DNA of 56,168 nucleotides from Thermoflexus hugenholtzii JAD2 (lineage in GTDB: Bacteria > Chloroflexota > Chloroflexia > Chloroflexales > Roseiflexaceae): NCBI GenBank assembly GCA_945881915.1, contig CAMCVW010000019.1:1-56168 (forward strand), read 5' to 3'. The notes under the pieces are model-generated. The model searched no databases and had not been told where the DNA came from. It saw nothing but the letters and a program-made list of their open reading frames with translations. This document shows, one piece after another, positions 1 through 56,020 of the stretch; position 1 is the stretch's first letter; every line of letters starts with the position of its first letter. Position numbers and translations under genes: made by a program.

Positions 1-80
1 ACTCAACTCAACTCAACTCCACTCAACTCAACTCAACTCAACTCAACTCAACTCAACTCAACTCAACTCAACTCAACTCT
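1..80. repeat. ACTCA pentanucleotide tandem repeat inside dam-like gene
   Basis: Sixteen consecutive five-base units fill the first 80 bases. Fourteen are exactly ACTCA, the fourth is ACTCC and the last is ACTCT. The tract touches the window edge, so its true length is unknown. It lies in frame with the methylase that follows, where the 15-base period reads Leu-Asn-Ser-Thr-Gln without a stop. Because five is not a multiple of three, gain or loss of one unit would shift the reading frame. This is the arrangement of phase-variable genes, but a repeat at a contig end can also be an assembly artefact. Confidence 0.95.
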
Positions 81-814
81 ATATAGAACCATTTGTAGGG
101 GCTGGCGCAGTTTTGTTCGACCTGATGCCGCAACAGGCGCTAATCAACGACACAAATGCGTTGCTCATCACGTGTTACCGAGTGATTCGGCAAGATGTCC
201 ATGAGCTGATAGATCGGCTCAGCGCCCACGCCGCAGCACACAGCGAGGAATACTACTACGCGATACGCGCCCAAGACCGTGAATCGGGATATGCGAATAT
301 AGACACGGTCGAACAAGCAGCTCGACTCATCTATCTCAACAAGACCTGTTACAACGGGCTCTATCGTGTCAATAAAGCCGGCTACTTTAACACCCCATTT
401 GGCGCATACATCGACCCGGTCATCTGCGATGCACCGGTGTTGCACGCAGTGCATGCGTACCTACGCGACAACGATATCACCATTGTGCAGGGTGACTATG
501 CGCAGGTTGCAGAACACGCCACGGCAGGTAGCCTGGTCTACTTCGACCCCCCGTACCACAGCCCGACGCAGCGGAATTTTACACAGTATGACGCAGGAGG
601 TTTCGGGGAAGCAGAGCAGATTGCACTCGCACAGCTCTATAGGCGGCTGAGCTCTCGCGCTGTACGCTGTCTATTGAGCAATGCGAATACCCCCTTGATG
701 CATACCCTCTACGCAGACTATGCAATCGACATTGTCACCGCAAGTCGCGCCATCAATGCACAGGCAACGGCTCGTGGTGCGGTCACTGAAGTACTCGTAC
801 GGAACTGGTCCTGA
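2..814 (+). CDS. DNA adenine methylase, Dam / D12 class (5' partial)
   Basis: This is an N6-adenine DNA methyltransferase that uses S-adenosylmethionine. The SAM-binding motif I reads YIEPFVGAGAV (bases 80-112) and the catalytic motif IV is DPPY (near bases 545-556). The TCYNGLYRVN stretch is typical of the Dam/D12 family. The TTG at 113 is not the start, because motif I lies upstream of it in the same frame. The frame continues through the pentanucleotide tract to the window edge. The N-terminal FLKWAGGK-like motif expected in this family is not visible, so it must lie beyond the edge or be lost. The gene ends one base before the nuclease-like gene, which suggests a restriction-modification operon. 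A GATC-type target is likely for the family but cannot be read from the sequence. Confidence 0.85.
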   Translation, partial: LNSTQLHSTQLNSTQLNSTQLNSTQLYIEPFVGAGAVLFDLMPQQALINDTNALLITCYRVIRQDVHELIDRLSAHAAAHSEEYYYAIRAQDRESGYANIDTVEQAARLIYLNKTCYNGLYRVNKAGYFNTPFGAYIDPVICDAPVLHAVHAYLRDNDITIVQGDYAQVAEHATAGSLVYFDPPYHSPTQRNFTQYDAGGFGEAEQIALAQLYRRLSSRAVRCLLSNANTPLMHTLYADYAIDIVTASRAINAQATARGAVTEVLVRNWS

Positions 815-815
815 T

Positions 816-2117
816 ATGGACCGTCCCCGCAGCAGCATCAACGCGAGTTGGCAGACCCTGATTGAGCGCCACGACATCCCCGCGCGCATCGCCCGAGACG
901 GATCATTTATCATCAGCGCCGACGATATCAATGCCGTGCGCGAAGCGCGTTTGATGGCCAAATTCGACGAAGCACGCGCCGTCCCGCCGATTTTGGTGCA
1001 ATACGGCATTCAGATTTTGCCCATCAGCCGCGGTCAGTACATCCTCGGCCCGTTCGAGACCTATCAGACCCTCGATTACCCGCGCGCCCACCCGCAGCCG
1101 ATTCGCATCCCACACCTCGACACGCTCAATCCGCACGACATCCACAGCGAAGCCGAGGCACTCCTCTTTTTGGCGCAGAGCGGGGTCTGGAACGAAGTGT
1201 TCGGTGCGACTCAGGTCCACAACACACTCCAAGGACGGCGTGCGTCGGGCCAATTCGACTACACAATCCGGCGCACCGATGGCACCAATCAGCACATCAG
1301 CGTCGACAACGCGCAGATCGAAATAGACGCCGGGTATGAAACTACCGATGCAGTTTTTCTGTGCGAAGCCAAAAACCGGCACGTCAGTGAGCTCCACCTG
1401 CGCCAGCTCTACTACCCTTTTCGTTTTATCCGTGGGCGTACTAACAAGCCGATTTATCCCATCGCCGTGGTGTATAGCAACCAAACGTTTTACATATCCT
1501 GTTATCGCGTCGCTGTCGAAGGGGAATACAACTCGCTCGTGCTCGACCGGCGCTTCTGCTATACCCTCGACCCACAAACGGTCAGCGCCAGCATGGTGGC
1601 GCGTGCACGGGCGTTGCACCAACCACCCGATCCTACCCGTTACACGCAGGTACCATTCCCGCAGGCTGACAATTTTGCCCTCCTGTGCCGTCTGTGTGAG
1701 GCGTTGGCACAGCGCCCACTGAGTAGTGCCGACATTACCGCGTTCATTGGATATGCGCCACGCCAAACGGCCTACTATACGAGTGCCGGTCGTGCATTGG
1801 ACGTCATCGAACGTCATCGCGATGACGGGATGCTGACCTATCGACTGACTCCGTTTGGCCGCAGAATGATGCAGGCACCACTGCATACACAGCGCTTTTT
1901 ATTGATGGAAGCAATGATGAACATCCCCTGCTTCTATGAACTCATTCCGATACTGCTCCAGCAGCGGAGTGTGCCCGCCCGGAGTGAAATCATCCGGACG
2001 ATGACCGAACATCCGTACCTGTCGGCGAACACAGAAGTCACCATCCACCGGCGTGCCAGCACCGTGGAGCATTGGTTGACCTGGTTCGTGCGATCAATTG
2101 ATATCTGGGATACCTAA
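816..2117 (+). CDS. Putative type II restriction endonuclease (PD-(D/E)XK-like)
   Basis: This 433-residue protein starts at the ATG one base after the methylase stop (TGATATG), so translation may be coupled. The N-terminal third (EARLMAKFD, then ILPISRGQYILGPFETY) resembles uncharacterised restriction-enzyme-like families. I recall these as DUF6996/DUF6997 but could not check. A PD-(D/E)XK-like core is visible: acidic residues around 169-171 (QIEIDAGYE) and E184-A-K186 (LCEAKNR), followed by HLRQLYYPFR. The C-terminal part (about 310-433) looks like a winged-helix or DNA-binding domain. The position directly behind a Dam-type methylase supports a type II restriction role. Its 3' end overlaps the convergent NERD gene by four bases. 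The substrate site is unknown. Confidence 0.7.
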   Translation: MDRPRSSINASWQTLIERHDIPARIARDGSFIISADDINAVREARLMAKFDEARAVPPILVQYGIQILPISRGQYILGPFETYQTLDYPRAHPQPIRIPHLDTLNPHDIHSEAEALLFLAQSGVWNEVFGATQVHNTLQGRRASGQFDYTIRRTDGTNQHISVDNAQIEIDAGYETTDAVFLCEAKNRHVSELHLRQLYYPFRFIRGRTNKPIYPIAVVYSNQTFYISCYRVAVEGEYNSLVLDRRFCYTLDPQTVSASMVARARALHQPPDPTRYTQVPFPQADNFALLCRLCEALAQRPLSSADITAFIGYAPRQTAYYTSAGRALDVIERHRDDGMLTYRLTPFGRRMMQAPLHTQRFLLMEAMMNIPCFYELIPILLQQRSVPARSEIIRTMTEHPYLSANTEVTIHRRASTVEHWLTWFVRSIDIWDT

Positions 2118-3343
2118 TTTGAAGTCAACGGAACGAGCCACGACGCATCGCCAAAGGGCGTGTCGCGCAGGGTCACGATGAGCGAAGTCGCGCTCGGATG
2201 AATTGCCTGGAGCACCGTCACACTACCGCTAACCGTCAGATTGGGCACTGCCACCAACGTTTTGGGATTCGAGCGTTGTTCACTCAGCTCGTAGCGTGTA
2301 CCCAGCGAATCACGAATGCTCAGGTGCTCGTTGTCGAGCGGGATGCGCACCTCGAGGTCGCTCGCAGTGTGCAACACCGTCAGACTGATGTGCAACTCCC
2401 CATCGCAGGTATCTACCTTCGTCAGCGTCAATAATGCATCTGCCACCGCCCCCACAGACACACTCTGCCAACTGCCATCGCTCCCGCGGACACGCGCAAT
2501 CGTCTGTGCCGGCAACCAGGTACAGCGGGTAGCACGGGTGATGAACTGATTCGTTCCGGCAATATCAACGGTGGGTGTTGTGGTCATGGCTGGCAATGTC
2601 ACCAACCGTGTTCCTACGGTGTTGATGACGTACAGCACCGCCAAAATAATCAACAACACGCTGACACCAATGAGCGCCTGCCCAGTCCATGTCGACAGCA
2701 GCTGTGTCACAAAATTCGGCACCCGTGTGGGGCGTGATTCCGCATCCGGTAAAACTAACTGCTCGATTTCTTCCCAACGCGTGCAATGCAACAGCTGCGG
2801 GATGCGCACTAATTCGGTATCGCTCCACTGCATATCGGGCGAACGCTCAGTGAAGACATACAGCGCCAGTGTATCGAACCCCAGCACTTGCACCTTCCAA
2901 TCGGTATCAATCTGTGATTCCGGGTGCAAGTATGGCGCAATCGCCACGATACGGCGGATGGAGCGCACATCGATGTTGCGATTGCCGGCGATTTCACTGC
3001 GATGTTCATCGAGAAAATTCGAAAACGCGTAGTAATACGTCAACACCTGGTTGTATGGATTTTTGCGGCCCGGATTGATGCGCTTACGATCTTTATTGGC
3101 GCTTTCGACGAACCACGGACCGTTGACATCACCGATGACTTTGCCGTCACAGTACTTCAATTCGACGACGAAAATCCCGTCGTGCTTGAGCACGACCACA
3201 TCGAGCGTGCGTCCACCCACCGAGAAATTCGCCATCACAATGTACAGACCATCCAAGCGGGCAAACGCCGATGCGAGCTGCGTCAACGCACGGAGCTCGT
3301 TGGGATTTTCAGGTTTTTCGCCGATCCATATCTGTACTGCCAT
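2114..3343 (-). CDS. NERD-domain membrane protein with C-terminal Ig-like domain
   Basis: The 409-residue protein begins with a nuclease-related NERD domain (about residues 12-130). It shows the conserved pattern LDVVVLKHDGIFVVELKYCDG, with D48, E61 and K63 in the positions expected for a PD-(D/E)XK-type fold. One transmembrane helix lies near residues 217-240. A C-terminal beta-rich region (about 260-409) resembles DUF4352-type immunoglobulin-like domains, as in several secreted proteins further along this window. It follows uvrB with a nine-base gap on the same strand, so co-transcription is likely. NERD proteins are thought to act on nucleic acids, but a membrane-tethered version has no defined job. 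The start ATG at 3343 was chosen for the NERD alignment. Confidence 0.8.
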   Translation of the reverse strand: MAVQIWIGEKPENPNELRALTQLASAFARLDGLYIVMANFSVGGRTLDVVVLKHDGIFVVELKYCDGKVIGDVNGPWFVESANKDRKRINPGRKNPYNQVLTYYYAFSNFLDEHRSEIAGNRNIDVRSIRRIVAIAPYLHPESQIDTDWKVQVLGFDTLALYVFTERSPDMQWSDTELVRIPQLLHCTRWEEIEQLVLPDAESRPTRVPNFVTQLLSTWTGQALIGVSVLLIILAVLYVINTVGTRLVTLPAMTTTPTVDIAGTNQFITRATRCTWLPAQTIARVRGSDGSWQSVSVGAVADALLTLTKVDTCDGELHISLTVLHTASDLEVRIPLDNEHLSIRDSLGTRYELSEQRSNPKTLVAVPNLTVSGSVTVLQAIHPSATSLIVTLRDTPFGDASWLVPLTSN

Positions 3344-3352
3344 GTCGTATCG

Positions 3353-5413
3353 CTAGCGTTTTTTGGTGGGGCCGCGCCGGGCAGCCGCCGCGGGTTGTGG
3401 CATGATGGCAAATTCTTCTTCGAGTGCCAAAGTACGGCGAATATCCAGAATCTGGTCACGCAACGCCGCGGCTTTCTCGAACTCCAAATCGGCAGAGGCT
3501 TTTTTCATCTGCTTCTCGAGGTCTTTGATGAGCTTGACCATCGCCTCACGCGATGTGGGCATGTCGACGCGCTTAAAGTCGGCCGGATTCGCCGAATAGA
3601 CACCTTGCTCTTCGGCTGCTTTGCGCAATCGGTCACTCAAATCACGGACACCCTTGATGATGCCCATCGGGATGATGTTGTGCTCGGTGTTGTGTGCAAT
3701 CTGGATGGCGCGACGTCGGTCTGTTTCGTTAATGGCAGCCGTCATCGACCCCGTCATATTGTCGGCGTACATCAAGACCGTGCCTTCGACGTGACGAGCA
3801 GCCCGACCGATAATCTGAATCAGCGACGACGCCGAGCGCAAGTAGCCCTCTTTATCGGCATCCAGAATCGCCACCAACGACACCTCGGGCAGGTCTAACC
3901 CCTCGCGTAGCAGATTAATACCTACGACGACGTCGTAGACGCCCAAGCGGAGATCGCGCAAGATCTCGACACGTTCGATGACGTCGATGTCTGCATGCAG
4001 GTACTGTGTACGAATCCCTGACTCACGCAGATAATCGGCCAAATCTTCGGCCATCCGTTTGGTCAGCGTCGTCACCAGACAGCGATGCCCCTTGGTCACC
4101 CGGGCACGCACTTCGCTAATCAAATCATCGACTTGCCCACGCGACGGTCGGATGATGATGACCGGATCGATGAGGCCGGTGGGACGAATAATCTGCTCGA
4201 CAATCTGACCAGACACCTGGTGTTCATACGGTCCTGGTGTGGCCGATACGAAAATCGTTTGGCGGATGTGTTGATCGAATTCGTCGATGCGCAATGGGCG
4301 ATTATCCAACGCCGACGGCAACCGAAATCCATAATCCACCAGGGTTGTCTTGCGCGAACGGTCGCCGGCATACATGCCACGTACCTGTGGCAACGAGATG
4401 TGCGATTCGTCGACGAACAGGACGAAGTCATCGGGGAAGTAGTCGATCAATGTCCACGGCGTCTGGCCGGAAGCCCGGCGATCCATGTGGCGCGAGTAGT
4501 TTTCGATGCCGGAGCAGTAGCCCATCTCGCTCATCATTTCGATGTCGTACATGGTGCGCTGCTTGAGGCGCTGGGCTTCGAGATTTTTGCCCTGACTCTC
4601 GAGGTTCGCCAACTGCACAGCCAACTCATCCTGGATGTCGGTGATGGCCAGCTGGAGCTTCTCGGTCGTCGTCACAAAGTGCTTCGCAGGGAAGATGTCG
4701 ACGCTCTGCACTGTCTTAAAGACCTCACCGGTCAATGGGTCGAATTCACTGATGCGTTCGACCTCGTCGCCCCAAAGCTCGATGCGAATGGCTATTTCGG
4801 CATTGGCGGGCATGATGTCGAGCGTGTCACCACGCACCCGGAAGGTGCCACGGTGGAAGTCGATGTCGTTGCGTTGGAACTGCAAATCGAGCAGCTGGCG
4901 CAGCAATTTGTCGCGGTTGCGTACTTCGCCCACACTCACCGGCAACATCACCTGGCCGTAGTCGACCGGGCTGCCTAGACCGAAGATACACGACACCGAC
5001 GCCACAATCAGCACGTCACGCCGAGTCAAAAGGGCCTGGGTGGCGGCGTGGCGCAGGCGGTCTATTTCTTCGTTGATGGAGGCTTCTTTTTCGATATACA
5101 AGTCTTTGCTGGGCACATAGGCCTCAGGCGTGTAGGAATCGTAGTACGAGATGAACATTTCGACCGCGGCATCGGGCAGCAAATCGCGGAACTCGGCGTA
5201 CAACTGGGTCACCAGCGTTTTGTTGTGAGCCAGGACCAGCGTCGGTCGCTTCAATTCGCCAAACACCCAACTCATCACGGCAGTTTTACCGGTACCGGTG
5301 GCACCGAGCAATGTCTGATAGCGCAGACCGTCGTGCACCCCGCGCACGAGCTGCTCGATGGCCTTGGGTTGATCGCCGGTGGGTTTATAGGGAGCGTTGA
5401 CCGTGAATCCCAT
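3353..5413 (-). CDS. uvrB: UvrABC system protein B
   Basis: UvrB is the damage-verifying helicase-like subunit of nucleotide excision repair; it receives lesions from UvrA and recruits UvrC. The 686-residue length is normal. Walker A is GATGTGKT at residues 37-44. The beta-hairpin region contains [14 protein letters not shown], Walker B is DESH, and helicase motifs V-VI ([19 protein letters not shown]) are intact. A C-terminal UVR domain ([12 protein letters not shown]) for UvrC contact is present. The ATG at 5413 is chosen because it has an AGGAG site upstream and matches the family N-terminus ([15 protein letters not shown]); an in-frame extension to 5491 is unlikely. The NERD gene follows nine bases downstream. 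Confidence 0.97.
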
Positions 5414-5503
5414 TGTGGAGTACTCCTCGTATACCCTTCTATTATAGCGATACATCCGATGCGACGAGGGTGCGGGAGTTTTTATTTGCATGAGAAAAAG
5501 GGT

Positions 5504-50029: not shown

Positions 50030-50171
50030 GCGCGTAGGGTTTCCCCTTTCACCCCCCTCCCGAAAACTAGAAGAATTCCCTTCAGTATACGAAGGTTGAA
50101 CTGCAAATGCAAACGTACCGGTGATTCTGGTGAGGACAAAAGAGGAACGATCACGCAGAGGCGCGAAGGAT

Positions 50172-50202
50172 AGTGAGTAGTGAGTAGTGAGTAGTGAGTA
50201 GT
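50172..50202. repeat. Heptanucleotide tandem repeat AGTGAGT
   Basis: Four full copies and three extra bases occur directly after a copy of the dispersed element GATCACGCAGAGGCGCG (50149). It is followed by a T-run. It lies in the 330-base gap between rpsU and the CsaA-like gene, which otherwise has no gene. Such short tandem repeats are common in cyanobacteria and Chloroflexota. Confidence 0.9.
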
Positions 50203-50316: not shown

Positions 50317-50358
50317 CATAATTCATAATTCATAATTCATAATTCATAATTCATAATT
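50317..50358. repeat. Heptanucleotide tandem repeat CATAATT
   Basis: Six perfect copies end four bases before the CsaA-like stop codon (minus strand). Read on the minus strand the unit is AATTATG, the same heptad that forms half of the 14-base repeat at 55939. The gap between 50203 and 50316 holds no visible gene. Confidence 0.95.
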
Positions 50359-50362
50359 CTCG

Positions 50363-55938: not shown

Positions 55939-56020
55939 ATGAATGAGGAATTATGAATGAGGAATTATGAATGAGGAATTATGAATGAGGAATTATGAAT
56001 GAGGAATTATGAATGAGGAA
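55939..56020. repeat. 14-bp tandem repeat ATGAATGAGGAATT, 5.9 copies
   Basis: Five perfect 14-base copies plus 12 bases of a sixth lie 49 bases upstream of the smc start codon. Each unit is two related heptads, and the one read AATTATG equals the minus-strand unit at 50317. If the smc promoter lies here, repeat number might affect it, but that is inference. Confidence 0.95.

Follow-up and report, generated by a model that had tools for sequence, protein, structure and literature searches.

The window analysed here, 56,168 nucleotides long, is the whole of contig C19 of the 3.09-Mb, 63-contig genome G000 (GenBank assembly GCA_945881915.1), and its left end lies inside a tandem repeat. This (AACTC)n tract occupies positions 1–79 of the plus strand (TRF: period 5, 15.8 copies, 97% matches, score 151); the ACTCA repeat that the initial annotation had noticed at the start of the window is thus real. 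In the AACTC phase the tract reads ACTC followed by 15 units, with a single variant unit, CACTC, at 20–24, which is the 12th counted from the 3' end and corresponds to the ACTCC at 16–20. It is closed by TAT at 80–82, leading into YIEPFVGAGAV, and the frame stays open down to a TGA at 812–814. The 5' end of the tract is cut by the contig edge; its continuation in G000 lies at positions 4–103 of contig C51, minus strand. Perfect runs of five units, (AACTC)5, occur in only one of 400 Chloroflexota genomes, G000 itself, and at this one locus, so the length of the tract is far beyond chance. Across 11 genomes of the genus (AACTC)4 is likewise confined to this locus, in G000 and in its sister species G007.

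The body of a methyltransferase gene (M, 80–814, +) is followed by a predicted restriction endonuclease gene (R, 816–2117, +), whose ATG stands 1 nt past the M stop. The right flank is formed by a gene for a NERD-domain protein (PF08378; 2114–3343, −), a conserved neighbour in the clade of G000, and by uvrB (3353–5491, −), which is syntenic in G007, G004 and G006.

The part of M encoded in the window belongs to the D12/Dam family of N6-adenine methyltransferases. It matches PF02086 (4.1e-50) and TIGR00571 dam (2.8e-70), and its nearest PDB structure is M.DpnII (2dpm, 5.3e-58). Motif I, EPFVGAGA, is encoded at 86–109 and the catalytic DPPY (motif IV) at 545–556; with the portion of the gene described below, M has both profiles and all three motifs of the class, i.e. 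X (FxKWxGGK), I (EPFxGxGA) and IV (DPPY). By these marks M is a candidate DpnM/Dam-type (GATC) methylase, sharing FLKWAGGK, EPFxGxGA and DPPY with the M.DpnII/Dam family, which it matches strongly. It differs from that family in the linker between GGK and EPF, which the repeat extends from about 17 to about 42 residues. In 79 homologues from outside the genus this linker has 17–22 residues and is free of repeats; a linker with three AACTC units would come to 17. We also considered M as the Mod of a Type III system (PF01555-type) with a Res partner, but PF02086 is its sole match, with no N6_N4_Mtase profile, and the neighbouring gene has no helicase domain. A lone Dam was ruled out as well, since R directly follows M and the pair is conserved: R was matched at the same locus for 53 of the 79 distant homologues, in pairs from many phyla. 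The "Dam-like methylase" of the initial annotation was therefore right as to family, but the gene appears to be the M of a Type II-like restriction-modification operon.

At E≤0.001 the R protein matches only DUF6996, DUF6997 and DUF7226, in that order along the chain, with winged helices at the C-terminus; at the same threshold it has no match to the DpnII restriction endonuclease family (PF04556), in which it departs from the partner of M.DpnII. An alignment of 32 sequences has 38 invariant residues, all kept in R, among them E169, D171, E184 and K186 in the arrangement E169xD171...E184xK186 (GAC 1326–1328, GAA 1365–1367, AAA 1371–1373, +). These four lie on neighbouring strands of the predicted model (pLDDT 91.8), which makes R a candidate PD-(D/E)XK-like nuclease of an unnamed family. 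Foldseek and VIA-align returned mainly MarR/ArsR winged-helix matches over residues ~260–433 and no nuclease match for the N-terminal part; the query was the whole model rather than the N-terminal domain alone, so that this result excludes nothing about a nuclease fold. When R was searched against the PDB with phmmer, no credible match came back. The order M-R recurs in different phyla and is also seen on plasmids, where two records place a "hypothetical" R beside a "DNA adenine methylase". R homologues are found on Lactiplantibacillus, Enterococcus, Staphylococcus and other plasmids under the labels hypothetical, translation elongation factor and AAA-associated protein (hits H1–H20). The two adjoining genes fit a candidate Type II restriction-modification system in which the nuclease role of R is predicted.

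The repeat had initially been described as running in frame into motif I. Read from the window, this is uninformative because the contig starts inside the tract and the ACTCA repeat is free of stops in all three forward frames. The annotation had also advised looking further left for a start codon and FLKWAGGK, and both do precede the tract, on C51, the end of which is the sole other site of the AACTC repeat in G000. Its minus strand carries, in order, tatC, a promoter-like stretch, a Shine-Dalgarno GAGG, ATG, MATRPPHLKPFLKWAGGKRQLLPVIRAAI, 20 perfect AACTC units, TAT and the contig end; 29 codons of M, FLKWAGGK included, thus precede the tract. That C51 and C19 hold the two parts of one split M gene is supported by their matching end sequence and by G007, where tatC, M, R, the NERD gene and uvrB follow one another on a single contig. 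The two contig ends, with 20 and at least 16 units, are one substitution apart, a difference that may be assembly noise.

The M frame is open only if the number of units is a multiple of three (frame table, n=14–24). Full-length M has 303 aa at n=18 and 308 aa at n=21, while any other number ends translation at window position 86 or 204. With 20 units, not a multiple of three, the C51 copy does not read into YIEPF in frame and is thus off if the assembled length is right. The G007 copy, with 18 units (17 AACTC and one AACTT), has an open M of 303 aa followed by R, i.e. on. Unit numbers therefore differ between relatives, these being different species and not strains. The tract has the features of a repeat-driven phase-variable gene: it is coding, its unit is not divisible by three, and two of every three lengths lose the frame.

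The M-R pair is present in five of the 11 genomes of the genus. G000 and G007 carry AACTC, between tatC and the NERD gene. The other three (G002, G005 and G010) have seven-base AATTCCC arrays at the same position of the M protein, between motif X and motif I, in a copy that is about 60% identical to the AACTC-bearing one and occupies a different locus: the G002 copy follows recG, the same protein-kinase-like gene lies beyond R in all three, and in this clade tatC and NERD adjoin directly, without R-M between them. The G002 array has at least 17 units, the N-terminal and C-terminal halves of the gene both ending in AATTCCC. The residues encoded by the repeats differ between the clades (NSTQL for AACTC, NSQFPIP for AATTCCC); since they are not conserved, what is retained is not the amino-acid sequence of the insert. 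No repeat-free copy of M was found among the 11 genomes. Four of the five that have the pair show a contig break exactly at the tract, a further point in favour of the switch proposed below. In G004, G006 and G008 (L154, L155 and L156) only the beginning of M, start codon to KWAGG(K), remains after tatC, joined to the 3' end of R; the sequences read as scars of a lost R-M operon, deleted at the short direct repeat GGYGGCAAA. In M of G005 (contig C409, L160) a run of T just past motif I (GCACTTTTTTT) counts seven, one fewer than the eight of G002, and the frame is broken; this run is possibly a second slippage site or an assembly error.

Between G000 and G007 pS is 0.74 and pN 0.18 for M, and 0.76 and 0.18 for R. 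By these values both genes are under purifying selection although synonymous sites are saturated. The unit of the tract is identical in the two species despite this saturation, and for this reason we take the AACTC tract to be renewed at the DNA level.

M and R are separated by 1 nt in G000 and G007 and by 5 nt in G002 and G010, and in the G000 clade the ribosome-binding site of R itself is poor. Because R starts 1 nt past the M stop behind so poor a site, coupling to M is the simplest way to its translation and probably the only one.

GATC, the sequence expected of a DpnM/Dam-type enzyme, is depleted in G000, with an observed/expected ratio of 0.51 over 454 kb (rank 2 of 256 tetramers). The ratio is 0.40–0.59 in all congeners sampled, some from samples as small as 8–27 kb, versus 1.0–1.15 in sister genera and the order. 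GATC is likely the target of M-R, and the depletion fits an old association with long exposure to a GATC-cutting system, though it could have another cause. It does not prove the specificity of the enzyme, because G003 and G009, where no such system was detected, are depleted too. In the Lake Biwa metaepigenome the Chloroflexi motifs were GANTC, TTAA and GCWGC, not GATC; two of the three Chloroflexi bins concerned are assigned to the CL500-11 group, a different family from G000 (PMC6329791).

Taken together, the split gene, the conserved locus, the frame arithmetic, the two non-triplet repeats, the purifying selection and the GATC depletion make it probable that the tract is a slipped-strand phase-variation switch in the M gene of a Type II restriction-modification operon. 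One unit gained or lost would shift the frame of M and turn the system on or off, and through coupled translation the frameshift would silence M and R together; no nuclease would then be made without protective methylation. From the sequences we infer slippage in living cells, the coupling, GATC specificity, nuclease activity and a benefit in phage defence or epigenetics. The phase-variable methylase proposed initially is well supported in its central idea, by the 5' start with FLKWAGGK, the open gene of G007 and the second non-triplet repeat; on the other hand the bounded G000 copy, at 20 units, is out of frame.

The explanation that competes best, to which we give a low chance, is that the repeat grew neutrally in a tolerant surface loop with no selection for switching, its out-of-frame copies being dying genes. 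The C51 copy is indeed out of frame, and the system has disappeared from three congeners through deletion between the GGYGGCAAA direct repeats. Repeat growth moreover appears common in G000, since the 454 kb covered out of 3.09 Mb hold about 12 further short tandem arrays, most of them 7- and 14-mers. Nearly all of these arrays are nevertheless intergenic, and strong purifying selection on a gene would be expected to remove a non-triplet repeat from it. Yet separate lineages have units of five and seven bases at one and the same codon position, and the pentamer has outlasted synonymous saturation.

It is less probable still, and in our judgement unlikely, that only M switches, R being independent or dead and the methylase acting as an epigenetic regulator (a phasevarion) rather than in defence. 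Phase-variable methylases of pathogens are often regulators (PMC7394358), and the nuclease activity of R is only predicted. Against this, purifying selection acts on R as it does on M, the 38 invariant residues are all present in R, the genus-wide GATC depletion is as expected under restriction, and R made without M is expected to kill the cell. An assembly artefact, i.e. a mis-join at the contig edge hiding a normal N-terminus next to motif I, is so improbable that we set it aside: the window does open within the tract, and repeats are a frequent place for contigs to break, as the initial annotation had cautioned, but the repeat stands in several independent contigs (C51, C19, both halves of the G002 copy and the unbroken contig of G007, which includes the two flanks), and C51 with the intact G007 contig rules out the direct junction named there as a refutation.

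The phase-variation switch in M may be combined with a second layer of control. Upstream of M a promoter-like element, TTGATC-N17-AATAAT, is associated with two GATC sites 13 bp apart (C51:197–256, −; L009). It is kept in G000, in G007, in the three scar genomes (the second hexamer reading AATATT in G006) and in G002, at the different locus; a single match to the pattern in G010 lies inside another gene and was taken as a chance match. A leader hairpin covers the GAGG of M; in the upper stem of this hairpin G000 and G007 differ by compensatory changes that keep the pairing. Upstream of M in distant homologues GATC pairs follow no consistent pattern, with two or more sites in seven of 61 loci. 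Methylation-controlled expression of M-R is possible on this evidence. It has a known precedent in CfrBI, described as rarely used (PMC12707154), which likewise has recognition-type sites in the promoter region of an R-M system; the likeness is at the sequence level only, and M and R are here in tandem, not divergent. We propose tentatively, as an idea with appreciably less than an even chance, a two-layer heritable switch. Slippage would set M and R on or off together, while the GATC-bearing promoter-like element and the leader hairpin would let the system's own methylation tune its expression, making the passage between states survivable for a Type II system; two lineages would have kept this module at different places and rebuilt its slippery repeat with different units.

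Phase-variable methylases have been catalogued mainly in Type I and Type III systems and studied mainly in host-adapted bacteria, repeat-driven switching being recorded for 17.4% of Type III mod genes and about 10% of Type I systems (PMC7394358). The mod genes of Neisseria and Haemophilus, with which a parallel was first drawn, are Type III, so this is an analogy only. Like M, modS of Streptococcus suis is an N6-adenine methylase gene with a coding non-triplet repeat, the pentamer GAGCA, whose length shifts the frame (PMC6265453). Unlike such Type III Mod proteins with their Res, the present system, in Chloroflexota, pairs a D12/Dam-type M with a separate Type II-like R, and has its repeat placed between motifs X and I. 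Switching of Type II restriction-modification by repeat length is known from the Type IIG proteins JHP1272 and HP1353-1354 of Helicobacter (PMC3936762) and from Campylobacter jejuni (PMC4889913). In Type IIG both activities reside in one protein, whereas M and R are separate genes here and joint switching needs coupling; the Helicobacter switch also works by homopolymers (PMC3936762), not by a pentamer.

Switching a classic two-gene Type II system looks risky, since a cell that loses M while R persists should die. The locus suggests how this could be done safely, with the repeat in the upstream M and R apparently translated only behind it. In open-licence papers we found no report of phase variation in Chloroflexota or in a comparable Type II system with two genes, which is weak evidence of absence. 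The 5-mer and 7-mer at one codon position in two lineages offer a natural replicate for selection on switching, and the locus draws attention to an R family (DUF6996/6997/7226) that is widespread and has no name yet.

Other arrays were noted in passing. The window has intergenic TAGTGAG x4.6 (50171–50202) and CATAATT x6.1 (50317–50359), and an intergenic 14-mer, ATGAATGAGGAATT x5.9 (55939–56020), which lies upstream of a gene resembling smc; G000 has similar 7-mers and 14-mers in other places. On contig C5 (L167:2945–2990) an 11-base unit, GCTCCGGCCTC x4.2, lies in a long ORF (1618–3336, −) and is thus coding and not divisible by three. Contig C10 (L172:13280–13477) carries AACCTGT x28, a heptamer array of 198 bp.
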